Source of the DNA: Bacteroidota bacterium
GTDB lineage: Bacteria; Bacteroidota; Bacteroidia; Bacteroidales; UBA1402
Assembly: GCA_030706285.1 (NCBI GenBank)
Contig: JAUZOU010000004.1
Coordinates: 1-34,173 of the forward strand
Direction: 5' to 3'
Length of the DNA: 34,173 nucleotides
How positions within the stretch are numbered: the first letter of the stretch is position 1; the number at the start of each line of letters is the position of its first letter. The notes under the pieces were generated by a model. The model was not told where the DNA came from. It did no database searches and saw nothing but the letters and a program-made list of their open reading frames with translations. Position numbers and translations under genes: made by a program. Shown here piece after piece: positions 2,491 through 32,888 of the stretch.

Positions 2491-4563
2491 TTAGCGGGTT
2501 TTTGAAGCCATGATTTTTTGAACAATGACTTTCTCGCCTAAAACAGCCTTAACGAAATAGACACCATCGGATCCGTATCCTGAAAGGGTCCCGCCACTCA
2601 ACTCATAGACACCGGCTTCGCTGTGAAACGCCGGAAACGATTTCATCAATTGGCCTCTCAGATTGTACAGATAGAAGGAGATGGTGGCCGGATAAGTCAA
2701 TGTATAAGTTAAGCTCAGTTCATTGTCCCGGGAGACGATGGCCGAGAAACTCAGCGAGTGGCTGTTAACCGGTGTTAAATAGGTTGACACGTCTGAACCT
2801 TTGTAGCGGTAGTTAAACCGGCCGTTCGGAGCGACGTCACCATCGGTGATGAAATCGAGAATATCGGGATTTGATGGGACATTGTCAGCCCATTTGAAAT
2901 CCAGGTCTTTGGCATCAGTCATGCCGATCAGGTTTTTAGGAATGGCTAACTGAAGCACATTACCAACAGGCTGGCGATACGTTACAAGGGAAACCGTCTC
3001 CCAGTGATAGGTATTGCCGGTATTTCTCATCAATGAATACTTGCCGGTCAGTGTGTCCCGTTGAACAATAAAGTCATAACCTTTCCAACCGGTCGAATAA
3101 TCGGCGTCTGTATTCAGGTATAGGATCATCCAGTTTTTTGACAGCAGGAAATTGGTCATCCGGCTGTTGGTCCTGACATAGAAATATAGATTGTCGGCAT
3201 CCTTAGTCACCTTGGCGCACACGATGTCATTTCTGCCCGTCGTATTGACCACAGGCGCCGTATTCTGATAGCCTTTCGTGTCGCGGTGGGTAATGTCACC
3301 GATATCATCCCGGAATTCCGGATAAACGGATGTCCACTGTGAGGTATCACCGTTTATATCGATTGTTTTGGCAGCCGACGGAACCGGAATCGGTCGGACT
3401 CCCTTGTACCGCCGGGCATGAGAGACGAATTGCATCCAATAATTATCCCTGATCAACGGGTGCCAACTTGGTTCAAGATCACGGCTGAACTCGCCGTTGT
3501 ATTCATCCACAAAATAGGATTCACCAATTTTCGGAGTCGCCCCCGGGCGGCAGTTGCCGAATTCACTGGTCGATTTGATGACAAAACGGCCGGCTGTCCA
3601 TTCATTAAACTGAGTGACCATAATCAAAGGCGGATCGACCTCATGAGCCCGTTTCCACTGTTCCTCAACATAAAGGCCGTAAGAAGTCGAATCGCACAGG
3701 GCATAGCGATTGATGGAAGGTTCCTTGCGATTATGATAACTCCGGCCGATTTTTGATGTGGCATGTTGCGAAACGCCAACGGTTATCTGTTCGATCTTGC
3801 CATTGCTGTCATAGCCAAAATCCTGAGGATAATAATCGAGCCATTGCCAGTAATTTGGCTGGGAACTCATCCACGCCCAGGAATATCGAAATGTAAAGTG
3901 TCCGGTAATGGTCTGATTCCAGCTGCTGATATTGTTCTTTTCATCCGCATTGAACAAAACTAACGGTTTCCCTTCATAATAATACCAATATTTATTGTTG
4001 GCCGGATATTTGTAGAACTGATCATAAATGTGATACAGTGTGGACTGAGCCGCCGAATGGATCATGTAACATAGTTTCGGACTTTTTTCGCCGTTGGCTG
4101 TCCGTCTGTCAATGGCACTCAACAACGCCTGAACAGCATCATCGTAGGTAAACGCATTGGTGATATCCAGAAAGAGAAAATCGATTCCTGCATCGGACAG
4201 CATCTGTAAATGTTTGTCGTACAGGTACGGATCGCCGTTGACGTAATAATTCATGACCGGTTTGGACCACCAGATGGCTTCTCCTTCCTCTCCCCAAGTG
4301 ATACTGTCCGGATTATTGGTCAGCATATTGGTCATGTCATAAACCGGATGGCCATTGATGCCATGAGGGCCGAAACAAATGAAATAAAACATGCCGAGCG
4401 TTTTGTCCGTTCTGGGAGCGGACAAACCATCATCGGAAGAAGGTACCTTTCTGCCAAGATCATCGACAGCTACCCACGTGTCACTATAGGTATCCCATGT
4501 GGCAGCTGTTGCTACATAGGACCAACCGGCCAATAACAGCAAGAGAAATAAGACTCTTTTCAT
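2491..4563 (-). CDS. Putative glycoside hydrolase, GH71/GH99-like TIM barrel, with CBM9-like domain and T9SS C-terminal sorting domain (paralog 1)
   Basis: 690 aa. Signal peptide MKRVLFLLLLLAGWSYVATA; GMFYFICFG, LSDAGIDFLFLDITNA, MVTQFNEWTAGRFV; CBM9-like TIDINGDTSQW...NTTGRNDIVCAKVTKDADNLYFYVRT...GWKGYDFIV; C-terminal LYNLRGQLMKSF...GVYFVKAVLGEKVIVQKIMASK. Confidence 0.8.
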   Translation of the reverse strand: MKRVLFLLLLLAGWSYVATAATWDTYSDTWVAVDDLGRKVPSSDDGLSAPRTDKTLGMFYFICFGPHGINGHPVYDMTNMLTNNPDSITWGEEGEAIWWSKPVMNYYVNGDPYLYDKHLQMLSDAGIDFLFLDITNAFTYDDAVQALLSAIDRRTANGEKSPKLCYMIHSAAQSTLYHIYDQFYKYPANNKYWYYYEGKPLVLFNADEKNNISSWNQTITGHFTFRYSWAWMSSQPNYWQWLDYYPQDFGYDSNGKIEQITVGVSQHATSKIGRSYHNRKEPSINRYALCDSTSYGLYVEEQWKRAHEVDPPLIMVTQFNEWTAGRFVIKSTSEFGNCRPGATPKIGESYFVDEYNGEFSRDLEPSWHPLIRDNYWMQFVSHARRYKGVRPIPVPSAAKTIDINGDTSQWTSVYPEFRDDIGDITHRDTKGYQNTAPVVNTTGRNDIVCAKVTKDADNLYFYVRTNSRMTNFLLSKNWMILYLNTDADYSTGWKGYDFIVQRDTLTGKYSLMRNTGNTYHWETVSLVTYRQPVGNVLQLAIPKNLIGMTDAKDLDFKWADNVPSNPDILDFITDGDVAPNGRFNYRYKGSDVSTYLTPVNSHSLSFSAIVSRDNELSLTYTLTYPATISFYLYNLRGQLMKSFPAFHSEAGVYELSGGTLSGYGSDGVYFVKAVLGEKVIVQKIMASKTR

Positions 4564-4568
4564 GCCAG

Positions 4569-6857
4569 TCAGAATTCCAGTCGATTAATCTTCACCTTTG
4601 GTGCCAACGCATTGGTCGTTTTCTGCATCCAGGTCTTGGCCAGTTTAAATGATACGTGTTGACGAACATCGGCTACGGAAGCAGCAAAAAAGGCTGTATA
4701 ACTACCTTTGTCGGCAACCCACGACGAAGAGGATTCGTGATACGAAGCAAGATCGGAGACATTGAACGTCATGGTCACAACCTGACTTTCTCCGGGAGCC
4801 AACAACTTGGTTTTAGCAAAGGCTTTCAGCTCGCAGGCCGGTTTTTTGATGTCACTGGCGGGTGCCTTAATGTACAGTTGAACAACCTCCTTGCCCGGGC
4901 AATTGCCGGTATTGGTCAGCTTGACCGTCGCTTTCCACTGTCCGTTACCTTGTGCCAGTTTGGCATTGGCATAACTAAATGTGGTATAAGACAATCCATA
5001 CCCGAATGGATACGAGACCTCCTTTTTAGCCGTTGAAAAATACCGGTAGCCAACCCAGATATCTTCTTCGTAGTCCGTATAATCGACATTCTTTCCGGAC
5101 TGGCTGATGCCTTCGACCGGGAAATTCTTTGAGGAAGGTAGATCGGAATAATTGACCGGGAATGTCATCGGCAATCTACCGGAAGGGTTCGTCTTGCCTG
5201 TCAGCACATCGGCCACAGCGTTTCCTACCTCCATTCCGGGAATCCAGGCAACGACCACCGCGTCAGGTAGGTTTTTCCAGGAGGCCGTTTCGATGGCACT
5301 TCCAATATTAAGAACCACCACGACCTTTTTGTGTTTGGCATGGAAGGCATCACAAACTGATTTTAACAGGCTCTCTTCTGTTTGGGTCAGGTTGAAATCG
5401 CCCTCGATGGTCCGGTCGGTCCCTTCACCTGAATTCCGTCCCAAGGTCACAACAGCAAGATCTGTCACAGCAGCTTGCCTTTCCGCCAGGGCCTTATCCA
5501 TTTCCATTTCAGGCAGTGTCGGTCTTCTGTAGGAGATGAACGGCCAGCCGTTCTGATCGAGGTCTTGGGTCATCTTGACATTCTGATAGGTCCTATAGTC
5601 CGTATAAATCCTGTTGAGCAACGGATCGAGGGCAAAGCCGGCATTTTCAAGTCCTTTGGAAATATCGACAATGTATGGTTTGTTCACATTGCCTGAACCG
5701 GTACCTCCGGCGATGGATTGGTAGGAAGTCGCTCCGAAAAGTGAAATCGTCTGTTTCGGGTTATTCAGCGGCAAGGTTGCCGCATCGTTCTTGAGCAGCA
5801 CCATGCCTTCGCCACCTGAAATGCGGGTGATGCGGGCATGTTCTTTCAAATCAGGCTTGTTTGAATACTGATAGTTTTTGAAACTCGGCGTCTTGACGAT
5901 ATACTCAAGCATCCGTCTGACACAGGCATCCACATCCTTTTCTGCCAGTTTCCCGCTTTTTGCATCTGCAACAAGCTGGTCCGACTGGCTTTTATAACCG
6001 GGCATCATCAGATCATTGCCGGCATGTACCTGCTTCGACGTATTTTTTGGATCGCTCCAATCTGTCATGACCATGCCTTTGTACAGCCAGTCATTCCGAA
6101 GGACTAACGTCAGCAAATCAAAGTTTTCCTGGGTATAGTCGCCGTTCAGTCTGTTGTAGGAAGACATAATTGTCCAGGGGTTGGATTCTTTGACACAAAT
6201 CTCAAACGGTTTCAGGTATATCTCACGCAAGGCTCGTTGCGAAATATGGGCATCGTTGGCACCTCTGTTTTTTTCCTGATTATTGGCAGCAAAGTGTTTA
6301 ACACAGGCTCCGATACCCATCGATTGCAACCCTTTGACCATCGCTGCACCCAATTTTCCGGCCTGAAGCGGGTCTTCTGAAAAATATTCAAAATTGCGTC
6401 CGTTCAGCGGATTACGCAAAATATTCACTCCAGGGCCAAGAAGTACGTCCACACCGTATTCCTTGACTTCATTTCCCATGGCCCGGCCGATTTCCGACAC
6501 CAGTTGGGTATCCCAGGAAGAAGCCAGCAATACGCCGCAAGGAAAGCCTGTACAAAAATAGGTAGCCGGATCATTGTCTCTCAAAGGCCTTATTCTTAAT
6601 CCGGCAGGCCCGTCAGAAAAGACCGTGGCCGGAATCCCCAACCGGGGTATCGGGGCTGTGTATCCAGCCGCATCAGGAATAGTCCGCGTTGTTGCTCCGG
6701 AACCGGCCAACAACGTCGCTTTTTCTTCCAGTGTCATGGAAGCCAATACTTCGTCTATGGAATTCACACCCAATTGCGGTGGATTTTTGGCATTTAGACC
6801 TGAAACACAAGATAAGATGAAAACAATGAATGCGAGTGATTTTTTAATTATTGCCAT
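4569..6857 (-). CDS. GH3 beta-glucosidase with C-terminal Fn3-like domain
   Basis: 762 aa. MTLEEKATLLAGSG, IPRLGIPATVFSDGPAGLRI, ACVKHFAANNQE, MVMTDWSDPKN (nucleophile Asp), NPSGRLPMTFPVNYSDLP, YPFGYGLSYTTFSY, Fn3-like NTGNCPGKEVVQLYIKAP. Confidence 0.93.
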   Translation of the reverse strand: MAIIKKSLAFIVFILSCVSGLNAKNPPQLGVNSIDEVLASMTLEEKATLLAGSGATTRTIPDAAGYTAPIPRLGIPATVFSDGPAGLRIRPLRDNDPATYFCTGFPCGVLLASSWDTQLVSEIGRAMGNEVKEYGVDVLLGPGVNILRNPLNGRNFEYFSEDPLQAGKLGAAMVKGLQSMGIGACVKHFAANNQEKNRGANDAHISQRALREIYLKPFEICVKESNPWTIMSSYNRLNGDYTQENFDLLTLVLRNDWLYKGMVMTDWSDPKNTSKQVHAGNDLMMPGYKSQSDQLVADAKSGKLAEKDVDACVRRMLEYIVKTPSFKNYQYSNKPDLKEHARITRISGGEGMVLLKNDAATLPLNNPKQTISLFGATSYQSIAGGTGSGNVNKPYIVDISKGLENAGFALDPLLNRIYTDYRTYQNVKMTQDLDQNGWPFISYRRPTLPEMEMDKALAERQAAVTDLAVVTLGRNSGEGTDRTIEGDFNLTQTEESLLKSVCDAFHAKHKKVVVVLNIGSAIETASWKNLPDAVVVAWIPGMEVGNAVADVLTGKTNPSGRLPMTFPVNYSDLPSSKNFPVEGISQSGKNVDYTDYEEDIWVGYRYFSTAKKEVSYPFGYGLSYTTFSYANAKLAQGNGQWKATVKLTNTGNCPGKEVVQLYIKAPASDIKKPACELKAFAKTKLLAPGESQVVTMTFNVSDLASYHESSSSWVADKGSYTAFFAASVADVRQHVSFKLAKTWMQKTTNALAPKVKINRLEF

Positions 6858-6981
6858 AACATATTCATTTATTTATATAAAAATTAATCTAAAAGACTTT
6901 GACAAATAATAATATAAAATTCAATTATAAACATGCCATTCATGCTTTATTATAGACCTCTCATTGACTGATTTGCGATGC

Positions 6982-9507
6982 TTAAAGCTTTATTATCTTT
7001 ATTTTTTGTCTGAATCCATTCTTACCAGCAACACTCACGATATAGGCACCCCGACGCAATTTAGATCCGAATCTAGCCTGAAAAGCGTTTACATCAGGTC
7101 CTAACCGATCAACAACAGAACCAGACAAGTCATATACGACCAGGTCTGAGATTATTTCCGGAGCTTGAATCAAGAAATCCATGGTTGATGGATTCGGCGA
7201 AACCTTTAAGGATAGACTGTTCACTTCTTTAAGGCCAGTTACCAACCTTTCATTGTAGACATAGTTGAACCTTCCACCTGGAGCAACATCACCGTTTACA
7301 TAGAAATCCATGATATTTCCATCTTCTTGCATATTGTCACTCCATTTAAATTCGAAATTAATTGGAGCACTTCCGGTTAGACCGAGCAAAGAACGTTTAA
7401 CCTTAATGACCAACGTTTTTCCATTGATGACATAGTCTGCTGATCCGCTCTTTTGCCAATTCCACGAAGTTGTACTCTTTTCAACTATAGCAGAATCTTC
7501 AGGGTTCATCCGATTTACCACATAGTCATAGCCTTCCCAACCTGTAGCTTTGTCACGATCCACATCAATAAAAAGCCGCATCCATTTCGCATTTGTCTTG
7601 TCAGTAAGAGGTTCGGCCGTTTCGACATAGAAATAGATGCAGGAAGAATCTCTGGCTACTTTGGCTCTGAAAATATCATTCCGTCCGGTTGTATTGGTAT
7701 AGACAAGCGAGCCCTGACCAGCAGCATTACGATGCAGCACATTGCCTTTATATGATTTGTATTCTGGTTTAACACCTTCCCAACTTGTTATATCCTGCAT
7801 ATTGATGGTTTTGGGGGCAGAAACAGAATCCAGTGGATCCATTCCTTTAAACCTACGTATATTACTTATAAGTTGCATGTAATAGACATCCCCCTTATTT
7901 CCCCATGATTTCACAGGTTCAATATCGCGGCTCTTATCGGCATTGTATTCATCAACAAACCCCATCGGTATCCCCCACGTAGACCAACGACCAGCGACCC
8001 ATTCATTCCAGCCGGTTACAAATACTAGATCCGGATCAAGTTCATGAGCTCTTTCCCATTGTTCCTGAAAATTCAGTCCTTTAAGATAGGCTCCGGCTGA
8101 TGTATCCTGTTTATTCGCCTGTGTATAGCTTCGTCCATAAGTTTCATAAGCAGGCCCACTCTTAAATTCATGCATATTAAATGCACAGCAATGACCACCT
8201 GTATAATCGCAAGCATTCTGACCGACACCGACTGTAACTTCCTCATAACCGCCATCTGTTTTAGGGGCATAACCTTTTTGCGGGGCGATTTCCAGCCAAC
8301 CCCATTGATCATTTCGTTTCGGACCACTTACATAATCCGGCTGCCCGGGACGGAAAGTGAAAAAATTCTTTATCGCATTAATCCTCCTCTGACTGATGCC
8401 GCTTCCTGAAATTTGAACTGCCGTACGAGCGATCCCCGTAGTTAAAGGGGTAAAATTAGTAGCAGTACTGCCATAAGAAATTTTGCTATAATAGAAACCA
8501 TTTACTTGTGATCCGGCAAAATAGCTGACAGCAGAATTAGTACCATAGATCAATTTCCAAACGCCAACTTCTTCGGTACCATCAGACAATTCCCACACAT
8601 AATCGCCAGCTGGCTGGGTTGGAAATGTCAATACAACATCCGTATTATCATTGAAATTGACAATCGTATCGACTGCTATTGGAGTTTCTGCAACACTTTG
8701 AGCATATGAAGTCTTCCATTTATAAAGGCTGAATGTCAAACTGCCTATATTATTTGAATAACTTGTACAGGATGCACTGATAGCGGAGAAAGAGTCTTTA
8801 GCCGTAAACTTGAGGCCTGCATTATTGGGTATCTTAGCTGACAGTTCGGGATAAGCCATGATCAAAGGCTTGTCATGCCACATAAACCACAAATCTTTAT
8901 ACAATTGAGGTTCATATAAATCCGTATATAATTCATTGATAGACGTTGCTTCATCTGAAGAAGCACTGAATGGTAAGAGAAACGCAATTTTAGGTGTGTT
9001 CACGCCATCCAACCTTGCTTGCTCCCATACTTTCAACAACTCCTTATAAGATGATTTCCAGGTAATGGAGCCGTTTGTACAATCGAAAAAAACCACATCA
9101 ACACCAGCATCAGCCAACATCTCCGCATGTTTTCTCAAGACCCAGTCATCTGTTGTACGATAATAACCAAACAGGGGCTGATTCCACCAGAAAACACCTC
9201 CTTCTATCCCTTTCCACAAGGCATTGCCCGGATTGGTTGCAGCAGTAGGATCTGTCAACAGAATCTGCGAGATATCCATTACTTCAGGTGTTGCAATATT
9301 GTCGCAATGCCATGTCCAATAAAACAGCCCTATGAATTTTCCACTTCTGGTACCGCCTGTTTGTGTTCTATCCGGCAGCTTCCGTCCTAAGCCATCTGTT
9401 GCTGCCCATTGATTGCTAATTCTGTTTGAGACTTGAGAACAGAGCATTTCAGGAAACAAAAGAACAGCTATTAAAAATAATAACTTGAGCGTTTTTTTTA
9501 TCTTCAT
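6982..9507 (-). CDS. Putative glycoside hydrolase, GH71/GH99-like, with inserted beta-rich domain, CBM9-like domain and T9SS sorting domain (paralog 2)
   Basis: ORF 6982-9528; the Met at 9507 (MKIKKTLKLLFLIAVLLF, signal peptide) is the more likely start. FIGLFYWTWHCDN, LADAGVDVVFFDCTNG, FVTGWNEWVAGRW; CBM9-like TGRNDIFRAKVARDSSCIYFYVET...GWEGYDYVV; C-terminal LKVSPNPSTMDFLI...YDLSGSVVDRL...GAYIVSVAGKNGFRQKIKIIKL. Confidence 0.8.
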   Translation of the reverse strand: MKIKKTLKLLFLIAVLLFPEMLCSQVSNRISNQWAATDGLGRKLPDRTQTGGTRSGKFIGLFYWTWHCDNIATPEVMDISQILLTDPTAATNPGNALWKGIEGGVFWWNQPLFGYYRTTDDWVLRKHAEMLADAGVDVVFFDCTNGSITWKSSYKELLKVWEQARLDGVNTPKIAFLLPFSASSDEATSINELYTDLYEPQLYKDLWFMWHDKPLIMAYPELSAKIPNNAGLKFTAKDSFSAISASCTSYSNNIGSLTFSLYKWKTSYAQSVAETPIAVDTIVNFNDNTDVVLTFPTQPAGDYVWELSDGTEEVGVWKLIYGTNSAVSYFAGSQVNGFYYSKISYGSTATNFTPLTTGIARTAVQISGSGISQRRINAIKNFFTFRPGQPDYVSGPKRNDQWGWLEIAPQKGYAPKTDGGYEEVTVGVGQNACDYTGGHCCAFNMHEFKSGPAYETYGRSYTQANKQDTSAGAYLKGLNFQEQWERAHELDPDLVFVTGWNEWVAGRWSTWGIPMGFVDEYNADKSRDIEPVKSWGNKGDVYYMQLISNIRRFKGMDPLDSVSAPKTINMQDITSWEGVKPEYKSYKGNVLHRNAAGQGSLVYTNTTGRNDIFRAKVARDSSCIYFYVETAEPLTDKTNAKWMRLFIDVDRDKATGWEGYDYVVNRMNPEDSAIVEKSTTSWNWQKSGSADYVINGKTLVIKVKRSLLGLTGSAPINFEFKWSDNMQEDGNIMDFYVNGDVAPGGRFNYVYNERLVTGLKEVNSLSLKVSPNPSTMDFLIQAPEIISDLVVYDLSGSVVDRLGPDVNAFQARFGSKLRRGAYIVSVAGKNGFRQKIKIIKL

Positions 9508-9589
9508 TGCAATGACATTATAATTCACAATTAATTATACATTTAGTCATTAATTAGCACCTATGAACCCATGCAATTCATTCAGTCTG

Positions 9590-11860
9590 TTAGTTCAACT
9601 GGAAGTTGGTCTTCAACACATCTCTTGAATTTCCACCGACAAACACAGTAAATGTCCCAGGCTCAACACGCCACTTCATGTTGGCATCATAATAGTTCAA
9701 GTTCTCTGGAGTCAATACAAATTGAACTGTTTTCGTTTCTCCGGATTCAAAAAACAACTTTTGAAAACCTTTTAGTTCCTTAACCGGTCGACAAACGGAA
9801 GCCGACAAATCTCTGATATACAATTGAACCACTTCCTCACCGGAACAATTTCCGGTATTTTTTACATCAACACTTATCTTGATGCTCCCTTTCATTGGCA
9901 AAACGGGTTGGTCGGTTCTTAAATTGGAATATTCAAAGGTGGTATAGCTCAATCCGTATCCAAAAGGATAAACAGCATCATTGGTCGCATCAGCATACCT
10001 TGACCGGAAAGGATCATCTGGCTTTTCAGCCTTAGGACGTCCCGTGCTCAACTCACTGTAATATAGCGGAACCTGCCCAATGTTATAGGGGAAAGAGACT
10101 GGCAGCTTCCCGGAAGGATTGCAATCGCCAAACAATACATCAGCAATGGCATTACCAGTCTGAATGCCCAGAAACCAAGTTTCAACAATGGCTGGAACAT
10201 GCTCAGCTTCCCATGGAATGGAAAGAGGTCGACCATTGGTCAATAGAACCACCACCGGTTTCCCCAGTTTCATCACCTCTTTCAAAAGAGCTTCCTGATT
10301 GCCCGGAATGTCAATTCTAATTCTGGATTGCGACTCTCCAGTCATTCCGGCCGATTCTCCCATAACCATGATAATCTGATCCGCTTGCCTGGCCACATTC
10401 AATGCTTCAGTAAAATCCTCAGGAGTTTTAGATTCAAGTTCACAACCGTGGCTGTATAAGATTTCCGTATTAGGAGATACCGCTGCTTTTATCCCTTGTA
10501 AAATAGGAACCACGTCTTTCTGATCGCCAAGACCGCCCCAGCACCCTAACATATCATGACTATCAGCTAAAGCGCCTATTACAGCGAGTTTTCCTATGTC
10601 TTTCTTCAGTGGCAACGTGTTGTTTTCATTCTTCAAAAGGACGATGGACTTTCTGGCCATATCCCGTGCTGCACGAATATGCTCCGGAGTCAATAGCTCT
10701 GTTTTCTCCCGGTTTGCATCACAATAACGGTAAGGATCTTCAAAAAGGCCCAATCTATATTTAATGGTCAGAATCCGGCGAACAGCTTCATTGATTACTT
10801 TTTCTGAAACAAGACCTGCTTCTACCTGTTTAAGCAATTCATTGCGGTAAGTATTGCTTTTCATCTCCATATCCAGTCCTGCATTTGCAGCCAATCGGGC
10901 TGCGTCCTTCTCATTCTCTGCATAGCCGTGTGCGACCAATTCTTTCACGGATTCAAAATCCGAGACAACAAACCCATCAAACCCCCACTCTTCTTTCAAT
11001 ATTTTTCTTAACAAGAATGAATTGGCCGAAGCCGGAATTCCGTTCACGGTATTGAATGAAGCCATCAACGTCCCAGCGCCAGCCTCTACGGCAGCTTTGA
11101 ATGGCAACAAATAGACTTCCCGCAACTGTCGCTCGGATAAATCGACTGCATTATAGTCCCGCCCGGCAATACCGGCACCATAGGCTGCAAAATGTTTTGC
11201 ACAAGCCACCACCGTATTGTTTTTGCTCAGATCATCCCCTTGATAGCCTCTCACACGGGCTTTTGCTATCAAAGCTCCCAAATAAGGATCTTCGCCCGCA
11301 CCTTCAGCAATTCTGCCCCATCTGGCATCGCGTGCTATATCCACCATGGGAGAAAAAACCCAGTGAATACCCATCGCAGAAGCTTCTACGGCAGCAATTC
11401 TGGCCGAACGTTCAATCGCACTGAGATCCCAACTGGCTGCCTCCGCCAAAGGAAGAGGAAAAACAGTCTTAAGTCCGTGAATTACATCAAACCCGAAAAT
11501 TAATGGAATATGCAGACGTGTCTCTTCCACTGCGATCTTCTGCAATTTATAGGAAACATCTACGCCTGCTACATTGAAAATAGATCCGACACGTCCCAGT
11601 CTTAAATCTTTTCCACCATCACTGCCTGGATCCAGGGGATTTTTGTCTGGCGACCAATCAAGAAGAGCCTGTGACATTTGACCGATTTTTTCTTCCAATG
11701 TCATTTTCTTAAGCAAGTCATCAAGAAACCGGTTCATCTTTTTTTCCTTTTCAAGCTGAACCTTTTCCGTAGTTGACAAAGAAACAGACTTTGCTTGTAC
11801 AGGAAGCATCATTAAGAGAAACAAGCATCCCAATACATTGATTTTTAAAATATTACGCAT
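9590..11860 (-). CDS. bglX: GH3 beta-glucosidase, BglX-type
   Basis: 756 aa. KMTLEEKIGQMSQ, FGFDVIHGLKTVFPLPLAEAASWD, MVDIARDARWGRIAEGAGEDPYLG, GFVVSDFESVKELV, MGESAGMTGESQSR, NPSGKLPVSFP, YPFGYGLSYTTFEYS. Confidence 0.95.
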   Translation of the reverse strand: MRNILKINVLGCLFLLMMLPVQAKSVSLSTTEKVQLEKEKKMNRFLDDLLKKMTLEEKIGQMSQALLDWSPDKNPLDPGSDGGKDLRLGRVGSIFNVAGVDVSYKLQKIAVEETRLHIPLIFGFDVIHGLKTVFPLPLAEAASWDLSAIERSARIAAVEASAMGIHWVFSPMVDIARDARWGRIAEGAGEDPYLGALIAKARVRGYQGDDLSKNNTVVACAKHFAAYGAGIAGRDYNAVDLSERQLREVYLLPFKAAVEAGAGTLMASFNTVNGIPASANSFLLRKILKEEWGFDGFVVSDFESVKELVAHGYAENEKDAARLAANAGLDMEMKSNTYRNELLKQVEAGLVSEKVINEAVRRILTIKYRLGLFEDPYRYCDANREKTELLTPEHIRAARDMARKSIVLLKNENNTLPLKKDIGKLAVIGALADSHDMLGCWGGLGDQKDVVPILQGIKAAVSPNTEILYSHGCELESKTPEDFTEALNVARQADQIIMVMGESAGMTGESQSRIRIDIPGNQEALLKEVMKLGKPVVVLLTNGRPLSIPWEAEHVPAIVETWFLGIQTGNAIADVLFGDCNPSGKLPVSFPYNIGQVPLYYSELSTGRPKAEKPDDPFRSRYADATNDAVYPFGYGLSYTTFEYSNLRTDQPVLPMKGSIKISVDVKNTGNCSGEEVVQLYIRDLSASVCRPVKELKGFQKLFFESGETKTVQFVLTPENLNYYDANMKWRVEPGTFTVFVGGNSRDVLKTNFQLN

Positions 11861-11990
11861 ATAGTCATTTCATTTCTAATTATTGAACTTAAACTGATCT
11901 ATCGGGGCAATTGGATTTATGGCTGATAATTTCAAATCATTCGTATTCAATAGCAAAAAACTTTCAAACAGGTATAAAATAATTTCATGG

Positions 11991-12031
11991 TATAAAAGAT
12001 AAGCTGGCAAGGCTGATAGTGTCTTGCCAAC
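11991..12031 (-). terminator. Probable intrinsic terminator downstream of the PA14-GH3 gene
   Basis: Inverted repeat GCTGGCAAG (12003-12011) / CTTGCCAAC (12023-12031): a 9-bp stem with one G-T wobble. The minus strand continues TTATCTTTTATA. Confidence 0.6.
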
Positions 12032-12052
12032 TTCGAATCGATCAACTATTAA

Positions 12053-14566
12053 TCACATAGTTATTTTGGAAGAAAGAACAATTTCCCTGGAATTCTTGCA
12101 GACCTGTATTTCATATTTTCCAGCATCAAAGCTCCAATCATTGACATTGACATTAAAATAAGAGAAATCCTCCTCATCCAGTGCAAAGTCAACGTTTACC
12201 GTCTCTCCCGCTTTCACAAATACCTTTTTAAAGGCTTTAAGCTCGTGCGTCGGACGATCGACAGATGGAGCAAGAGGCTTTACATAAATCTGTACCACTT
12301 CTGATCCGTCTCTCTTGCCTGTATTCTTCACTAAAACTGTTCCTTGTACCGTATGATCCTTGCCTTTTTTCAGTTTCATTTTTTTGTAAGTGAAATCCGT
12401 ATAGCTGAGACCATAGCCGAAAGCAAACTCCGGTTCGACCTGTTTTGTATCGTAATACCGGTAACCGACCATCAGCTTCTCTTCGTAATTGACGAAGTCG
12501 TTGGTTTGAGTAGCCAGTTTATGGCAAGGCACATCTTCCAGCTTTTTCGGCCAAGTAAACGGCAATCTACCTGACGGATTGACTTTTCCGAACAAGATAT
12601 CCGCAATGGCCGTTCCGCCTTCCATACCTGGATACCAGGCTTCAAGGATAGAAGGGACGTTGGGGCGCCATCCGCCTAATTCCAGCGGAGATCCATTGAT
12701 AAGCACCACCGACAACTTGCTGTTGACGCCGGCCAGATGGTTGATCAGGTCTTCCTGGGCCTTCGGGAATGTCAGGCTGACTCTGTCCCGGCCTTCCGTA
12801 TCAAGGCTGTAATCGATCCCTCCGACAAAAATGACTGCATCAGCCTCTTTGGCAGCACGGTCCAGTTCTGTCCATTTAGGCTTATTTTCTGAGTTTTCAG
12901 GCATTTCCCATTCGATCCGGAAAGCCGCGTCTCCGGATTGTTTGGAAAATGTGGTGCAAAGGTGGAACGGGACACCTTTCTTCAGATCGACCGTTGCCGT
13001 CACGGTGCCCATGCCTCTGTCTTTGTCGACAATGGCCATCGGAGCGCCTCCCCATTCATTATCAAAAACCAATGAATAACCACCCGAAATAAACCGGAAC
13101 GTATACTTGCCATCTACCGGAGGCATTATTTCGGCATCAAACCTGGCTTCCCTAAAATCTTCCAGCTTAATACTCGGTTCCGGTGATTTCATTTCCCACA
13201 TAAAATCAACATTCGGCACAGTCTTTGTTACCACCGGGTCGTCTTTTCCCTTGGCATAATATTGAGCCCTGAAGCCGGGTTTACCGTCTTCTGTCTTGAT
13301 GTATTGATCAGGAATCAGCTGAAAACCGCCTAAGTCATCGGAAGACATATACTGAACCTTTTCCGTTCCGATGGCCTTCCGGATACCCTGCAAGGCAGTG
13401 ACTTCATAGGGCGATTCCACCCACGAGCTGCCGCCCATGGCGACCAGACAAAACCGTTTATCGGCGTTCGGACCAGTGACCAGGACTTTTTTAATGGCAT
13501 CTGCGTGATACGGCAGATTCTGGTGATCATTTTTCAGCAGGACAATCCCGTCTCTGGCCATATCCAGTGCCACAGCCTGATGTTCCTTTGTATTAAGGGT
13601 AGCGCCTTTTTTCAAGTCAATGCCATCCAAGGCACCGACTCTTCCGTAAAACCGCAACACCCTTCTGACTTTATCATCGATGACCTGTTCGGGCACCTTA
13701 CCGGCTTTCACCGCTTCCAACAACGGTTTACCGAATCCGCAGATGTCACCGCCTGGCATCGAGACATCCAAACCGGCAAACGCCGCTTTTTCGACTGATC
13801 TCGTTTGAAGCCAGTCGGTAATGACAAAGCCGCTGAAGCCCCATTTTTCCTTGAGTATATCGTTCAGCATCTTTTTGCTGTCGCTGACAAATTCCTTGTT
13901 AACACCGTTGGCTGAGGTCATAACCGACCAGACATCCGCTTCTTTAACGGCCGCCTTATAGGCAGGAAGATAAATCTCATGCAGTGTCCGGTCGTCCACC
14001 ATGGACATGTAAAAATTGCGGTTATTTTCGCGATTGTTGCAGCAATAATGCTTCAAGCAAGCGGCCACGCCTTCACTCTGGATGCCCTTTATCTGAGCAA
14101 CGGTAATGACACTGTTCAGAAACGGATCTTCCGTGTAATACTCGAAGAAACGGCCGCCCAGCGGATCTCTAAGAATGTTACAAGCCGGTCCCAGCAACAT
14201 GCCGCGATTCAAGGCTCGTGTTTCCTCTCCCATGACCTTGCCGGCTTTCTGAACCAACTCGCTGTTCCAGCTAGCGCCAAACAACACGCCGGAAGGAAAG
14301 GCTGTCGTCCCGACCTGTCCGTTTGGCCCGCGCGGGCCATCGCAATAGCCTACAGGCGATATATTTAGACGAGGAATGCCTTTATAGGCGCCATCTCCAC
14401 CTGTACACAATCCGACTTTTTCTTCGATCGTCAGTTGTTTCAGGATGGTTTCAACTTTTTGTGCCAGTTGCTTGTCCTCTCTGGGCAATGCCTGGGCTTT
14501 TACCTGGCAACTGCAGATGGTCTGAACCAGAACTATGATTGTCAGCAATTTTCTAAACTTGTTCAT
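12053..14566 (-). CDS. GH3 beta-glucosidase with inserted PA14 domain
   Basis: 837 aa. LTIEEKVGLCTGGDGAYKGIPRLNISPVGYCDGPRG, GGRFFEYYTEDPFL, GFVITDWLQTRSV, PA14-like PGFRAQYYAKGKDD...GKYTFRFISGGYSLVFDNEW...FRIEWEMPE, NPSGRLPFTWP, FAFGYGLSYTDFTY. Confidence 0.93.
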   Translation of the reverse strand: MNKFRKLLTIIVLVQTICSCQVKAQALPREDKQLAQKVETILKQLTIEEKVGLCTGGDGAYKGIPRLNISPVGYCDGPRGPNGQVGTTAFPSGVLFGASWNSELVQKAGKVMGEETRALNRGMLLGPACNILRDPLGGRFFEYYTEDPFLNSVITVAQIKGIQSEGVAACLKHYCCNNRENNRNFYMSMVDDRTLHEIYLPAYKAAVKEADVWSVMTSANGVNKEFVSDSKKMLNDILKEKWGFSGFVITDWLQTRSVEKAAFAGLDVSMPGGDICGFGKPLLEAVKAGKVPEQVIDDKVRRVLRFYGRVGALDGIDLKKGATLNTKEHQAVALDMARDGIVLLKNDHQNLPYHADAIKKVLVTGPNADKRFCLVAMGGSSWVESPYEVTALQGIRKAIGTEKVQYMSSDDLGGFQLIPDQYIKTEDGKPGFRAQYYAKGKDDPVVTKTVPNVDFMWEMKSPEPSIKLEDFREARFDAEIMPPVDGKYTFRFISGGYSLVFDNEWGGAPMAIVDKDRGMGTVTATVDLKKGVPFHLCTTFSKQSGDAAFRIEWEMPENSENKPKWTELDRAAKEADAVIFVGGIDYSLDTEGRDRVSLTFPKAQEDLINHLAGVNSKLSVVLINGSPLELGGWRPNVPSILEAWYPGMEGGTAIADILFGKVNPSGRLPFTWPKKLEDVPCHKLATQTNDFVNYEEKLMVGYRYYDTKQVEPEFAFGYGLSYTDFTYKKMKLKKGKDHTVQGTVLVKNTGKRDGSEVVQIYVKPLAPSVDRPTHELKAFKKVFVKAGETVNVDFALDEEDFSYFNVNVNDWSFDAGKYEIQVCKNSREIVLSSKITM

Positions 14567-14581
14567 CTACCTATGTATCAT

Positions 14582-16348
14582 TTATTTGACAACTTCAATT
14601 TCTTTCGGGGCATCAACGGTTGTTTTAACTGTACCGTCCGGTTGCTTCACATGATGGACCTTAATGAGGCCATACGGCGTCGGGAATGTACCCTCTACCC
14701 ATTCGAGATTTCCCAGATGGGGGCTGATGCGTACTTTTTTACAACCAGGCTCCAAGGGCTCTACACCAAGAATATACCGGCTCATCCAGGCTGTCGGACC
14801 GGAAGCCCATCCATGACATAGACTGTGACGATAACCGGTATAACAATAAGCACCATACGTCGAATGGACATCGACTTTGTCTTTTGAGACCAGCTCATCG
14901 ATACGGCCGGCATTTTTCATCCAATCGATGTTGAAATCTTCCCAGAATGTTGTGGCACCCAGATCGAGCATGGAACCCCAATACTCTCTGATGTTATCGA
15001 TAGCACCCTGAAAATCGCCGGCCTTGGCTTTGGCTTCAAGCATATAATAACCATAAAACGTCGACATACCATGAACACCGTTCATGGACAATACCTTCTG
15101 ATCAGCTTCTCTAGCCGGGACTAGCCCTGACAGGCTCAGCAAAGCCGCCGCTTGCTTGGACTGTCCCAGATGAGGCACCTGTTTTTTTAGTCTTTTCAAT
15201 GAGGCCTCACACAACGAAGCTGTTTCTTTATCCTGCAGCGCCTGGCTGATTTCGTCACCTGCCTGAAAAGCCATGACCATCAACGATTGCAATCCGGCAT
15301 GAATGGCTTCCGGATTTTCACTGGAAGGCCAGTCCAGGAAACGGGTCCCATCAAGTGTCTCTTTCCCGTTCTTGTCAATATGTATGCTCAATAATTTCAA
15401 AAGTTGAGATAAATAGCTCTGTTGCTGCTTAAGATAAGCCAGGTCACCTCTGTACATATACCAGTCTCGTTGAATGATGATCCACCACATTGAATAAGAA
15501 CTGATCCCGTTGAACCATGCCGGCAGCGGGGTCAAACTGCGAGCCAGATCCAGGCTTTTCGGCACGACTTCATTGTAGCCGAAAGCTGAACAAATGGTCA
15601 TGATCTCAGGATGCAGGTCGCCGACCCAAACCAGTCTGTCTCGCTTAATTCCATCCCATAAATAGTCCTGCATATTCAAATGGACGGTATAGGCACCCGT
15701 CTGCCAAATGTTGTTCAGTTTTTCATCATTGCATTTGAACGTACCAAGATAGGGTATGTCACGGAAATAGGAAACAGCATTGATTTCTTTTATTTCAACA
15801 ATATTGGCCGGATCCACGAGATCGATGCGCATAAACCGGAAACCGGATTCGCCGACTTCTATGTGTCCGAGCCACGGCAAAGAAACGATTTGATCGCGAA
15901 TGGCATGGTCGTTTGTCGATCCCTGCTGGCCTATTTCGCTCATGGCTTCCGAAACAGATTCACCGAAACGGATCCTCACTTTTCCGGCAGGTTTGTTGTT
16001 GGTTGCCGTTGTGATGATTTCGATACCGCCTTCGATTTCACGGCCAAAATCCAGCACAATACCGCCTTTCCCTTTTTCATTGCTAATCAGCCGGAGATAG
16101 TTGCCTGTATTCAGGTCGGCCTGTCTGGTCCCTGTCTTGAGTATTGCTCCGGCATTTTGGACAAATTTTCCGTTCCCATCATCCGACGTCCAGATAATCC
16201 GGACAGGGGTAATAAAAGCCCGTGTTATGTCGGAGCGTTGAGTTGAATTTGTCTGTTCCGGAAGAGGCGACTGAGCATATAAGATGCCGGAAATGCCTGA
16301 AAATATGACGAATACTATTTTTCTAAACTGTTTGATCGATAAGTTCAT
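14582..16348 (-). CDS. Alpha-L-rhamnosidase-like (GH78-related six-hairpin glycosidase)
   Basis: ORF 14582-16417; the Met at 16348 (MNLSIKQFRKIVFVIFSGISGILYA, signal peptide) is the more likely start, because the upstream 23 codons begin at GTG and are not signal-like. GH78-like VLDFGREIEGGIEI, NIWQTGAYTVHLNMQDYLWDGIKRDRLVWVGDLHPE, LGATTFWEDFN, CYTGYRHSLCHGWASGPTAWMSRYILGVEP. Confidence 0.82.
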   Translation of the reverse strand: MNLSIKQFRKIVFVIFSGISGILYAQSPLPEQTNSTQRSDITRAFITPVRIIWTSDDGNGKFVQNAGAILKTGTRQADLNTGNYLRLISNEKGKGGIVLDFGREIEGGIEIITTATNNKPAGKVRIRFGESVSEAMSEIGQQGSTNDHAIRDQIVSLPWLGHIEVGESGFRFMRIDLVDPANIVEIKEINAVSYFRDIPYLGTFKCNDEKLNNIWQTGAYTVHLNMQDYLWDGIKRDRLVWVGDLHPEIMTICSAFGYNEVVPKSLDLARSLTPLPAWFNGISSYSMWWIIIQRDWYMYRGDLAYLKQQQSYLSQLLKLLSIHIDKNGKETLDGTRFLDWPSSENPEAIHAGLQSLMVMAFQAGDEISQALQDKETASLCEASLKRLKKQVPHLGQSKQAAALLSLSGLVPAREADQKVLSMNGVHGMSTFYGYYMLEAKAKAGDFQGAIDNIREYWGSMLDLGATTFWEDFNIDWMKNAGRIDELVSKDKVDVHSTYGAYCYTGYRHSLCHGWASGPTAWMSRYILGVEPLEPGCKKVRISPHLGNLEWVEGTFPTPYGLIKVHHVKQPDGTVKTTVDAPKEIEVVK

Positions 16349-16503
16349 AGACTGCTGTTTTTTTCGTTTAAGGCGACGCAGGGCATAACATGCTATCTTT
16401 CCCGTCAGCATGGGCACTTGTTAAAACCTGTTTGCCTTATCTATTTTTCAAACTTGTCACTTGCCTATTAACTATTTATATGGCAGGTGATTGTATAAAT
16501 AAA

Positions 16504-18516
16504 TCAAAATGAATGTTCAGGTTTTTTCCATATAAATCGATAATTAAACCTTCGATTTGGAGCAGCGTCACCACCGGTACAAAATGAAACAGGATCTTTC
16601 AGTTCTTCGGCATTGTCGCTCCATTTGAAATCAATGATAAATTCACTGCTCATTAAATCCAACACGTTCCTTGGAATGGCCGCCTCAATCTTGTTTCCCT
16701 TTTTCCGGTACTTAACCCGGCATCGTTCCACCCAGTTTCCTCCTGCAGGTGAAGAAACATAAGCCATCAGAACAGTCGTTTTCGCATCGACGACTTTCAG
16801 GTTCAGGACATAGTCATAGCCATACCATCCCGTCGCAGAGTTGTGATCGGTATCGATGAAAAGCAGCATCCAGTTTTTGCCGGTACACGGTGAAATGTCG
16901 TTGGCTGTTTCCATATAGAAATAGATATTTTTCTTATCGACAGCTACTTTCGATGTCAGAAAATCGTTCCGTCCTGACTGATCGGAATAATGCAGACCGG
17001 CATATCCGTCATAATCGCGGTGGGCAACATCGCCTTTCGTATCTCTGTATTCGGTTGTGAGGACGTCCCAGTCTGAAAACCGGCCATCTATGGTAACCGG
17101 ATGGTATCCCTGATTAACAGGAACCGGCCGTACCCCCTTATACCGTCTGATGTTCTGAGCCAACTGCATATAATAATTGTCCGTATACCCATCCTTCATC
17201 GGTTGAATCGTCCGGTTAAACTCCGAATTGTACTGGTCGACAAAGAAGTAGTTGCTTTTCCGTCCCATAAAAGTGACACTATCTGTCTCTTTGTCCGGGA
17301 AAAACATACCGGCTGTCCATTCATTCCAGTCATTCACATAGATAAACTGAGGATCGGCCTGAAGGGCTTCGTCCCATCTTTCCTGAAAATACAAGCCGTA
17401 TTGGGTGGAATTGCCGGACGTTGTGCCGGCCGGTTGGGGTAAGTCATATTGATTGAGCAATGGCTCCCCGCCTTTTCTGGTCCAGGATTTTCCGATCATC
17501 GTAATCGGATGCTGAGCGGCTGTCACGGCCGCTTCTTCCCGTACTCCGTTACAGGTTGAAACCAGGTCAACCACAGGTAAATTCCGGACCCGTTCGTCAC
17601 TAAGATCATAACCGAAACTCCAGTTGCCTTCAGTTCCGACAAAACGGGACCCTCCCCATTGATAGTAACCCCACCACATATTCCGCAGGGTGAAAAATTG
17701 CTTCACCTCTTTAGAATAGTCTTTATAATAGGGTTCAGTATAATCCGGATCTCCATAATGAGGATTCGTCCGGTTAGTTACGGCGTCGGCTTCAAAATGG
17801 CGGTTGGGATGCTTGATGGCATTGGAATTGGCGTCAAAAAACGGCGTCGCATTATATAGCAGCAATGGTTTCCCCTTCCAGTAAAACCAAAGATCCTTAT
17901 ATTGACTGGCCTTGTAAATACGGTCATAAATATCCTGGACCACCGTAATGACGTTCCCGTTAAATGCCCAGAAGCAAAACGCGGGAACTTTGTTGCCTTC
18001 CGTCTTCATTTGCTCCATGACGTCAAAAACCGATGTCCACTCATCCCAATATTCCACCGCATTGGTGGCATCCATAATCAGGACATCTACGCCTGCATCC
18101 GAGAGCATGGACAGGTCTTTTCTGATGACATAAGGATCCCGGCTGAGAAAATAACCATTTTCCGGTTCGCCCCAATGGTAATACCCGCCGCCGTTCTCCC
18201 AGTCTTTACTTTTTCCGTCAAATCTGGCATCCGGATTTTTCTTTAAGATGTCCGTTACATTCTTGTAGCCGGCCGTTTTCAGTTTTGCCAATTGATCTGA
18301 ATGCCAGGTGACATAAAAAATACCAACGATCCTTTGCTTGTCCGGTTTTAACGATCCGGCCTGTTCGATACCTGGCATGATCCGTCCCAAGGCATCCGTA
18401 GCTACCCATGTATCCGGATAGATATCTCTGAACCCGCTCGTTTCCGGTTTAGCAGTTGCCAGTACAGGCAATCCTAAAAAAAACAGCATATAGAGGGCCA
18501 ATCGTCGTTGATTCAT
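16504..18516 (-). CDS. Putative glycoside hydrolase, GH71/GH99-like, with CBM9-like domain, no T9SS tail (paralog 3)
   Basis: ORF 16504-18543; likely start Met at 18516 (MNQRRLALYMLFFLGLPVLATA). IVGIFYVTWHSDQ, LSDAGVDVLIMDATNA, YVNDWNEWTAGMFF; CBM9-like VTIDGRFSDWDVL...DQSGRNDFLTSKVAVDKKNIYFYMETA...GWYGYDYVL; ends at NRRFNYRFIWKKPEHSF. Confidence 0.8.
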   Translation of the reverse strand: MNQRRLALYMLFFLGLPVLATAKPETSGFRDIYPDTWVATDALGRIMPGIEQAGSLKPDKQRIVGIFYVTWHSDQLAKLKTAGYKNVTDILKKNPDARFDGKSKDWENGGGYYHWGEPENGYFLSRDPYVIRKDLSMLSDAGVDVLIMDATNAVEYWDEWTSVFDVMEQMKTEGNKVPAFCFWAFNGNVITVVQDIYDRIYKASQYKDLWFYWKGKPLLLYNATPFFDANSNAIKHPNRHFEADAVTNRTNPHYGDPDYTEPYYKDYSKEVKQFFTLRNMWWGYYQWGGSRFVGTEGNWSFGYDLSDERVRNLPVVDLVSTCNGVREEAAVTAAQHPITMIGKSWTRKGGEPLLNQYDLPQPAGTTSGNSTQYGLYFQERWDEALQADPQFIYVNDWNEWTAGMFFPDKETDSVTFMGRKSNYFFVDQYNSEFNRTIQPMKDGYTDNYYMQLAQNIRRYKGVRPVPVNQGYHPVTIDGRFSDWDVLTTEYRDTKGDVAHRDYDGYAGLHYSDQSGRNDFLTSKVAVDKKNIYFYMETANDISPCTGKNWMLLFIDTDHNSATGWYGYDYVLNLKVVDAKTTVLMAYVSSPAGGNWVERCRVKYRKKGNKIEAAIPRNVLDLMSSEFIIDFKWSDNAEELKDPVSFCTGGDAAPNRRFNYRFIWKKPEHSF

Positions 18517-18549: not shown

Positions 18550-21500
18550 TTAATAATTCACCGTTGTCAAATAAACAGGGCCCGCCAATCCTGATGGCTG
18601 CAAAGGCGATCCGGTATGGTACGGATTGACGATGCACCATGTCTTCCGGCTTTCTTCCGGCAGTCTGCTGTCGCCGATCAACCGGTTTGCCCAGGTATTG
18701 ACGACTGAGACCTCTATTTCATTTGTTCCGGTTCTGATTGCCTTTTTAATATCAACATGCCACGGTGCCGTCCAGGCACCTCCTACTTCCATACCGTTTA
18801 CCTTAACCCTGGCCATGGCCGAGAGCCTGCCTAGTTCCAAAAAAAGCCTGTCACACTGAGGTATCCGGTCCAGCGTCACGGTCTTTTGGTAAACAGCTGT
18901 GCCTGAATAGTATCTGATACTGTCATTCGAACTGTTGGTCCACCAATCAAGCCTGTTTGTTTTTTGCGGTTGTCTGGGGCCATCGAAGGCCGGATCAAAC
19001 TGAACAGTCCAACCGGCAGAAAGATCGGCCAAGGTGTCCGGTTCCGGGCAATTTATACCGGCAGAACTAGCAACAGTCATTGCTCTGCCGCTTGCTTTTT
19101 TCCTGAAAACAATAAAAGTACTTTCCAAAGGTTCCAGCTTGATGGGGACAGTTATCCCCTCTTTTGCCAGATGATAGTCCGGCAACAACCGGACGGATCC
19201 ATCGACTGGATTCCACCATTCAGGTAACTTGTTTCTGGTATTAAAACAAGGTTGGATCATCTGAACCGTTTCAGCCTGATTGGAAAGAAAATAGATGTCT
19301 TTATCTTTCAATCTTCTGTGTACAAACAAGATGGAATCGTTGTGTTCGATCAGGCAATCCGGTCTGTGACCAATCAGTCGGAAAACCTCCTTCATATCCA
19401 TACCATTGATAATCATTCCTTTTCCGACGTTGGCATATCTCACAGTCTTGCCATCTACCTTTCCCCAGATTTGATGAGCCGTTTCACTGACTTGTTTGTC
19501 AGCTTCCGGATAATGCCGGAGACTCGGAGACCGTTTGGGAGGTATGCCTACAACCACCGCTCCCGCATGGATCAGTTTCGAAATTTTTTTTAGCAGTTCA
19601 GGACGCATAGTCTCTTGTTTGGGCAAAACCAACACCCGGTAGCTCATGCCCCCCGGCAAGATGATTTTTCCATCTTTTACGTTTGCCTTAAACAAAACCT
19701 CGCTGTTGATGTAATCGAACGAATAACCCTGAGGAAGCGCAGGATCGCAGACGCCTGTCATTTTCGGCGTATCTTCTCCGATAAAATAGGCCACGTCGGC
19801 AACGTACGTTCCCTGCTGAAGCAAATAGTCACAACGTTTCAGATAGGATATAAAGAGATCCAGATAGCTAAACCAAGTATTCTTGCGGTTAAACTCGTTA
19901 CCGAACGGCGCATTGACACCCGGATATTTATCGTCATAGGGTTGCTGGATATACACATGAAGCAATGTATTGTTGATGCCTTCGGTAAAGAAACGGTCGC
20001 CTCTGCGTTTCATTTTCAAGGGGTAGCCTGAAAAAGCCGTACCACCGCTCGTGAACGATTCCGATGAGACCTTCCTTTTCCCGTATATATGGGCACAGGA
20101 AGAGGCTGCCCTATTCTCGATGTTTCCTAGTTCTCCCTCACTCCAGAATTCTCCCGAAACTTCGTCGGACTGTCCGCCGTATTGCAGAAATTCGCCTGGA
20201 AATCCCCAGTGCCCATAATTCTCAAGCCAAGTGGTCAATCCGTTTTTATGAGCCATCGTTCTTAACCCCCCGATGTAATTATAAGCAACCTTATCGGCGA
20301 CCAATCGCCTGAGATCCCACAGAAACCGGTCCGATTGATCACGGTTACTAACCACATGACCATTCAACACCGGAATAAACGGTACCGGATCATAGCCATA
20401 GGTTTTCCGGAATGTCTCAATCAAACCATCCGTCCAATTTTGCCCGCCGGTCTCATAACTGTCGGCAACCACCACTTTCCAGGTTTTTCTATCCTCAGCC
20501 GGTATTCGCCGCCTGATCTCACCGATAAAGGCATTGAAATGGGCACAAATATGCTGTTTGCTCATTTTATCGGCTTCCAGGCCTTGTGCCGGATAAAACG
20601 CCGGTTCATTTTTAACGCCGGTTGGTGTCATACCAGCCCTGACAATCTTCCACCGGCCTTCCGGAATGTTCCACTTCAGGTTTCCCGACGCATCCATATA
20701 GCGAGAAATATCTTGGACGGTTGATGGATGAATGTACAATGAATCTGCTGTTTCAGGCTGTCCGGGCCATCTATAATCAGACCATGCAGGAAGGGGAGTC
20801 TGGTGCATTTTGGCCAGAGATTTCTCAATAAAATTTTCCTCCAGCGGTTCCGGAGACAGTAAGATTTTCGAGAGTTCGCTTCCAGGTCTAATTTGATCCA
20901 ATATCAGTCTGACTGAAACCGTCCGGCAGTCGGGTACGGCCACCGTTACCGGTCCGGAAGGGTTAAAACCGACTTTCAGGTCATTGTTTGTCCTGTCCAC
21001 GTCAAATTGCCGGATCAGCCGGTAGCTACCGGCTTCCTGAACCAGCAACTGCACATGAAATGCCGATGTACTGCCAGGACCCGGATAAATCGAAACAGCT
21101 CTCAACACTTGAGCTTTTTCAGACTGAATGTCTATGGTCAATGTGTTCACCGACGGTAACCTGACTGACGTCTTGACATCGGTCTCGACAATCTTAGTCA
21201 ATCCGACAATGTCAGGAATAGAGCGGACCGTCAACGTCCGACCGGCCTGCTGACTGTTTGTTTCAGCCAATACTGGATAGGCCAGCACCCTGACATCCTG
21301 AAAACAGTCATCCGGTTTGACCAACTGGATAGTTGTTTGCGCCGGCCCGGAAACTTCCTTCTCTGACATGGACAAATAGCGCATCGCCTCTTCCGGCTTA
21401 ATCCAGGGACCACCCGACTGGCTCCAGCCGGGGCTGTTAAAAATGCCGATTTCAATGTTCAGTTCCGACGCCTTTTTTAAGGCAGCATGAAGAATGTTCC

Positions 21501-26429: not shown

Positions 26430-26457
26430 TTCGTATGATTTTAAGGTTATTTCTTTC

Positions 26458-32872: not shown

Positions 32873-32888
32873 TTATTAAAGGTACTCA

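Follow-up and report, generated by a model that had tools for sequence, protein, structure and literature searches.

We consider it reasonably probable that three genes on the minus strand of a single Bacteroidota contig, P1 (2491..4563), P2 (6982..9528) and P3 (16504..18543), encode one unclassified family of glycoside hydrolases (GH) whose substrate is probably a rhamnose-containing polysaccharide, a reading that draws on sequence comparisons and structure models. The contig (JAUZOU010000004.1, assembly GCA_030706285.1) was analyzed whole, and its 34,173 nucleotides are the window referred to below; it belongs to a draft genome of 3.6 Mb in 639 contigs. The three proteins resemble GH99 and GH71 in fold and lack the second glutamate of the catalytic dyad of those families. 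An initial annotation had described them as paralogs of one architecture loosely recalling GH71 or GH99, and had suggested that the main endo-acting activity of the surrounding polysaccharide utilization locus (PUL) is poorly described or new.

Fold, domains and ancestry

P1 (690 aa, with a signal-peptide-like N terminus), P2 (848 aa) and P3 (679 aa) are intact open reading frames (ORFs) and, judged by sequence, true paralogs. Local identities among them in BLASTP are 29-39%, reaching 41% when the genome is searched, with best E values of 1e-68 for P1/P2, 4e-100 for P1/P3 and 1e-54 for P2/P3, and no fourth paralog was found in the whole assembly. The single architecture first proposed for them is borne out, as are the limits given for P1; the starts proposed for P2 and P3, at 9507 and 18516, proved to be internal ATGs of ORFs that reach 9528 and 18543.

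Searches of the PDB with P1 or P3 as single sequences gave no match, and it was only the family profile, built from 50 members belonging to several phyla, that reached GH99: crystal-structure sequences of that family were returned at E values of 6e-7 to 8.5e-4, with no other credible fold. The main AlphaFold2 model, that of P3 (pLDDT 89.7, pTM 0.90), led to the same place. Foldseek filled ranks 1 to 35 with GH99 chains and ranks 36 to 38 with GH71, and the match to GH99 (E 8.6e-8, probability 1.00) identifies a GH99-type (beta/alpha)8 barrel. A second model, of P2 (pLDDT 83.8), matched GH99, the carbohydrate-binding module family 9 (CBM9) structure 1i82 (probability 0.99, E 1.7e-3) and the C-terminal domain of a type IX secretion system (T9SS) substrate, 8gl6 (rmsd 1.9 A). 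On this combined evidence from profiles and models, the homology to the GH71/GH99 superfamily over the barrel is real, where the first reading had seen a loose resemblance, and the architecture of these secreted proteins is that of a signal-peptide-like start, a GH99-like barrel and, after it, a CBM9-like beta-sandwich. To this plan P2 adds a T9SS sorting domain at the C terminus and a further beta-sandwich (about residues 230-375), which follows the strand formed by residues 220-224 as an insert.

The CBM9-like nature of the tail, also part of the initial annotation, holds at the level of structure but is essentially undetected by profile: PF06452 (CBM9_1) matched 1 of the 50 members, at E 0.011, and a profile of the tail found no chain in the PDB. 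The tail or a similar module also occurs in the N-terminal part of three otherwise unrelated Bacteroidota proteins of about 570-590 aa (L055, L056 and L071), and some family members are fused to CBM6, CBM35 or PA14 domains and to T9SS tails.

Existing models recognize the catalytic domain poorly. The GH99 model PF16317 gave P3 a score of 23.5 bits (gathering cut-off 33) and did not match P1 or P2; across the family it matched 20 of 50 members at E <=0.1, the best at 2.2e-5. The GH71 model PF03659 matched none of the 50 at E 0.1, no Pfam model reached its threshold in the catalytic part of P1, P2 or P3, and matches from NCBIfam were limited to the T9SS tail and stray ones, with no catalytic-domain model. 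In a maximum-likelihood tree of 65 sequences, comprising the family and sampled GH99, bacterial GH71-like and WbsX relatives, a branch with support of 100/99 sets the family apart from all three groups; the tool warned of long-branch joins among the outgroups, whose order is unsure. By these sequence criteria P1-P3 belong to one clade, which has no Pfam or NCBIfam catalytic model and lies apart from the sampled relatives, and no member was found to be placed within a characterized subfamily. The superfamily itself and its poorly described bacterial "71/99-like" members are already known (PMC13421300). A clade with ExxA and a CBM9-like tail was not described in the literature that we searched, a search that had CAZy and CDD outside its scope.

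Within the tree P1, P2 and P3 fall in three different deep subclades, each shared with genes of other genera, so they are best regarded as old paralogs kept together. Recent tandem duplication is ruled out, every paralog clustering with genes of other species. Because the subclades are separate and ancient, the three proteins may have three different jobs. The P2 side of the tree includes members from Planctomycetota and Armatimonadota. The family is uncommon, being present in 20 of 393 genomes of the order and matched in 4 of 297 genomes sampled across the phylum, two of those 4 matches being to the tail only. Several copies on one contig are found elsewhere too: four in G034:C52, three in G603:C112 and two per contig in each of G018, G576 and G640. 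Two outlying proteins were seen beside these. A 644-aa protein (L052:9604-11538) that adjoins a 1202-aa P2-type protein gave a weak partial match to the family (78 bits) and is possibly a diverged extra paralog. The L101 protein (G065:C24), GH99-like with the motif NEWSEE, resembles the family weakly on either side of the barrel and may be an intermediate still holding the second Glu.

The altered catalytic dyad

The sequence motifs listed in the initial annotation are present, and many of their residues are near-invariant over the 50 members, far beyond chance. Small deviations occur: P2 has NEWVAGRW in place of NEWxAGxF and RFKGMDPLD in the linker, and P3 ends in RFNYRF. Residue numbers below are those of P3.

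In GH99 both catalytic Glu residues lie within EW[H/G]E, and an H[I/L]EPY motif follows strand 3 (PMC11025385). In GH71 catalysis depends on a DxxE dyad, and mutating its Asp or its Glu lowers activity 200- to 15,000-fold (PMC12394665). GH99 and GH71 together show a single barrel and [D/E]xxE dyad serving two mechanisms, a retaining one via a 1,2-anhydro sugar and a classical inverting one (PMC12394665). In the present family the dyad reads ExxA. The first Glu (E408) is found in 50 of 50 members, and the second position is Ala in 48, Val in 1 and Met in 1, with Glu in none; in P1 the motif is NEWTA (3592..3606, minus strand; residues 320-324, residue n being computed as 4564-3n to 4566-3n), at the position of GH99 EWHE and GH71 DYGE. 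Profile-PDB and profile-profile alignments both place the family's NEWxA on NEWHE or NDYGE, and their agreement rules out an alignment artefact. The second Glu is kept in Bacteroidota relatives gathered through the Pfam models for GH99, GH71 and WbsX, as NEWHEG, ND[YF]GEG and NEWAEG, respectively. Seven aligned relatives share an invariant Glu after strand 3 (GH99, HIEPF; GH71-like proteins, VYEDQ); it has no conserved counterpart in the family's aligned columns, where the H[I/L]EPY motif was not found.

These losses bear on the idea that P1-P3 are simply divergent GH99 or GH71 proteins, working by the established mechanism as endo-alpha-1,2-mannanases or alpha-1,3-glucanases. The two families are the nearest solved structures, and the PF16317 matches point the same way. 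We nevertheless hold this explanation to be very unlikely: the dyad that defines those activities is broken in every member, the HIEPY Glu of GH99 is gone, the tree separates the family from GH99 and GH71-like sequences, and GH76, GH92, GH38, GH87 and GH97 are absent from the 25 families listed per tally of neighboring genes.

An active site is still likely, because an invariant set of acidic residues remains at the ends of barrel strands: E408 after strand 7, and D158, which with the likewise invariant N161 forms DxTN at the end of strand 2. Y131 is also invariant, and R287 is present in 48 of 50. The position of D158 holds Asp in the GH71-like set (VDWYG) and Ser or Thr in GH99. Judged from these sequences, the site looks changed, not decayed. 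The initial annotation had made a conserved acidic pair a condition of its proposal, and the answer is mixed, the canonical GH71/GH99 pair being lost and the invariant D158 and E408 standing at strand ends. By conservation and position in the model, these two are the likeliest catalytic carboxylates, and E408, the first Glu of the old dyad, would act with D158 as a pair. Since the dyad [D/E]xxE has become ExxA, protonation of the leaving group would have to differ from both the 1,2-anhydro-sugar route of GH99 and the inverting route of GH71. Two other acidic residues were considered. E336 is less likely to be catalytic, since strand 6 of the P3 model begins there, and D436, invariant in the loop after strand 7, is deemed structural, as sampled GH99 proteins also have Asp in the aligned F/Y-x-D segment.

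A surface glycan-binding protein on a dead GH99-like barrel could likewise have lost the acid/base Glu and the beta-3 Glu, and the CBM9-like tail and the CBM6/35 fusions would suit such a role. Together with cleavage of a nonrhamnosyl bond, discussed below, this is one of the two main rivals to a hydrolase of rhamnose-containing polysaccharide. We think a pseudoenzyme unlikely, given that invariance of E408, D158, N161 and Y131 and near-invariance of R287 through several phyla would be unusual for a binding-only scaffold. The three genes also lie amid many catalytic ones, and the gene is kept in lineages beyond Bacteroidota, e.g., Planctomycetota.

The locus and its likely substrate

The initial annotation had placed the genes in a PUL with two rhamnosidase-type enzymes and several GH3s, and the window agrees with it in full. 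All genes of the locus lie on the minus strand. Immediately upstream of P3 is a GH106 alpha-L-rhamnosidase (18550..21828; PF17132, E 1.6e-214; best PDB match 6q2f, E 6.9e-140), and on its other side is a GH78-type alpha-L-rhamnosidase (14582..16417; Bac_rhamnosid6H PF17389, E 8.9e-19; 3cih, E 7e-51). There are four GH3 genes: three are beta-glucosidase-like (12053..14566, with a PA14 domain; 9590..11860; and 4569..6857), and the fourth is truncated at the contig end (1..780). Two SusC/SusD pairs complete the locus, SusC-like 1 (28368..31562) with SusD-like 1 (26458..28257) and SusC-like 2 (23640..26486, with a plug domain) with SusD-like 2 (21856..23640).

Rhamnosidases recur around the family in other genomes. 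GH106 lies within 20 kb of 11 of 27 family clusters, drawn from the 20 genomes that have the family, where uniform placement would predict 2.1. That expectation overstates the significance of GH106, as carbohydrate-active enzymes cluster in PULs anyway, and the P value has no meaning by itself. As a control in the same genomes, GH43, whose matches outnumber those of GH106 by a factor of about 1.8, was near at least 3 of the 27 clusters among the matches listed. Among operon neighbors, alpha-L-rhamnosidase domains rank first in frequency of all Pfam families in two sets and share first place in a third, and four Pedobacter-type loci share the gene order GH106, GH78, family gene. At one of these, L010, the gene directly after the family gene matches 5muk, 5mvh and 5mum at E values of about 1e-147 to 1e-143 (best 1.6e-147), which we take to be GH145 rhamnosidase/lyase-type structures acting on Rha-alpha-1,4-GlcA. 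The same gene also matches 7esl, an L-rhamnose-alpha-1,4-D-glucuronate lyase, and it is followed directly by a DUF2264 gene.

Export signals differ among the paralogs. Against the T9SS sorting-domain model TIGR04183 (cut-off 23 bits) P2 scores 27.8, P1 scores 21.3, just under the cut-off, and P3 has no match; the genome encodes the T9SS core protein SprA (2671 bits). With a sorting domain above the cut-off and SprA present, P2 clearly carries a T9SS export tail, and P1, whose C-terminal signal is weak, probably does likewise. P2, and probably P1, would be attached to or released at the cell surface via type IX secretion, and P3, which has no sorting tail, may act in the periplasm. The three proteins would cleave glycosidic bonds inside or adjoining the rhamnose-bearing parts of the polysaccharide; from the gene context, the products would next lose their alpha-L-rhamnose and beta-linked glucose to GH106, the GH78-type enzyme and the GH3 proteins, and the two SusC/D pairs would import what results.

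The bond that is cut might instead be a nonrhamnosidic one, for example a beta-glucosidic linkage within a glucan or glycoside that bears rhamnose branches, with the rhamnosidases only removing decorations. This alternative fits the four beta-glucosidase-like GH3 genes of the window, as well as some P3-clade genes that adjoin GH3 with no GH106 label (L019-L022). Hydrolases of known activity in the GH99/GH71 superfamily, however, cut alpha-linkages (PMC12394665, PMC11025385), and we rate the alternative as possible, if somewhat unlikely. Rather more doubtful is a specific form of the rhamnose reading, in which P1-P3 would be a new GH family of endo-/exo-acting alpha-L-rhamnosyl hydrolases with a rebuilt pair of strand-7 Glu and strand-2 Asp and up to three specificities on one polymer. 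Lack of a Pfam or NCBIfam catalytic model agrees with the early suggestion of a poorly described or new activity, but nothing in the evidence marks it as the main one of the PUL or separates endo from exo action. A limited literature search found no endo-acting enzyme of the superfamily on rhamnose polymers; on PULs for rhamnan or with endo-rhamnosidases, and on cd11573/5/6, PMC13421300 was the sole relevant result.

Several points besides the clustering of carbohydrate-active enzymes weigh against a family of rhamnose-directed hydrolases. In structure GH99 is a remote match (TM near 0.55 by target length, with an rmsd of 8-10 A across some 440 columns and 11-15% identity), activity is so far known for none of the members, and loss of the acid/base Glu is equally expected of a noncatalytic carbohydrate-binding protein. 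Because Planctomycetota and Armatimonadota members have no GH106 or GH78 label nearby, and only around half of the clusters in Bacteroidota do, the link to rhamnose may not cover the whole family.

Other genes of the window accompany the P1 lineage. Homologs of both SusC/SusD pairs, in tandem beside a P1-clade gene, recur at loci L009 and L086, and this double cassette is conserved and tied to the P1 subclade. L086 also has, beside its P1-clade gene, a homolog of the T9SS-secreted 470-aa protein encoded at 917..2329 (minus strand), in which no known domain except the sorting tail was found. Upstream of the PUL, 31952-34172 holds a truncated TonB-dependent receptor, siderophore-type according to an NCBIfam score far under its cut-off, and an uncharacterized 306-aa protein.

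Relation to known GH99, GH71 and WbsX proteins

An old, widespread sister group that has lost the acid/base Glu and otherwise keeps an invariant site is a natural experiment on the rebuilding of an active site, and if our reading is true, it would supply a depolymerase candidate for rhamnose-containing polysaccharides. Its closest structural counterpart is GH99, the family of endo-alpha-1,2-mannanases and mannosidases represented by BtGH99 (4acy/4ad0), BxGH99 (4ad1) and human MANEA (6zdc). The two share the (beta/alpha)8 barrel, NEW after strand 7, a GYxS/T-x-D element and F-x-D after strand 7. Unlike GH99, the family has EWxA for EWHE, no HIEPY after strand 3, DxTN for TWW and an added CBM9-like C-terminal domain. 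With GH71 alpha-1,3-glucanases (AnGH71C, 9fnf; Agn1p, 8yfh) it shares the barrel, and in both a beta-sandwich is present at the C terminus, but the DxxE dyad is missing, Foldseek matches are weaker than those to GH99 and the family's sandwich resembles CBM9 1i82 and may not be the counterpart of that in GH71.

The bacterial GH71/99-like group is represented by PmGH99 of Prevotella melaninogenica (cd11575, GH99_GH71_like_3), which keeps DYGE and whose preferred substrate is unsettled (PMC13421300). It belongs to the same superfamily, and in the sampled GH71-like proteins strand 2 likewise has an Asp at its end (VDWYG); in contrast to the single barrel and DYGE of PmGH99, the family has ExxA and a CBM9-like tail. 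WbsX proteins (PF14307) likewise have the superfamily barrel and the NEW motif, but they keep NEWAEG and form a separate clade on a long branch.

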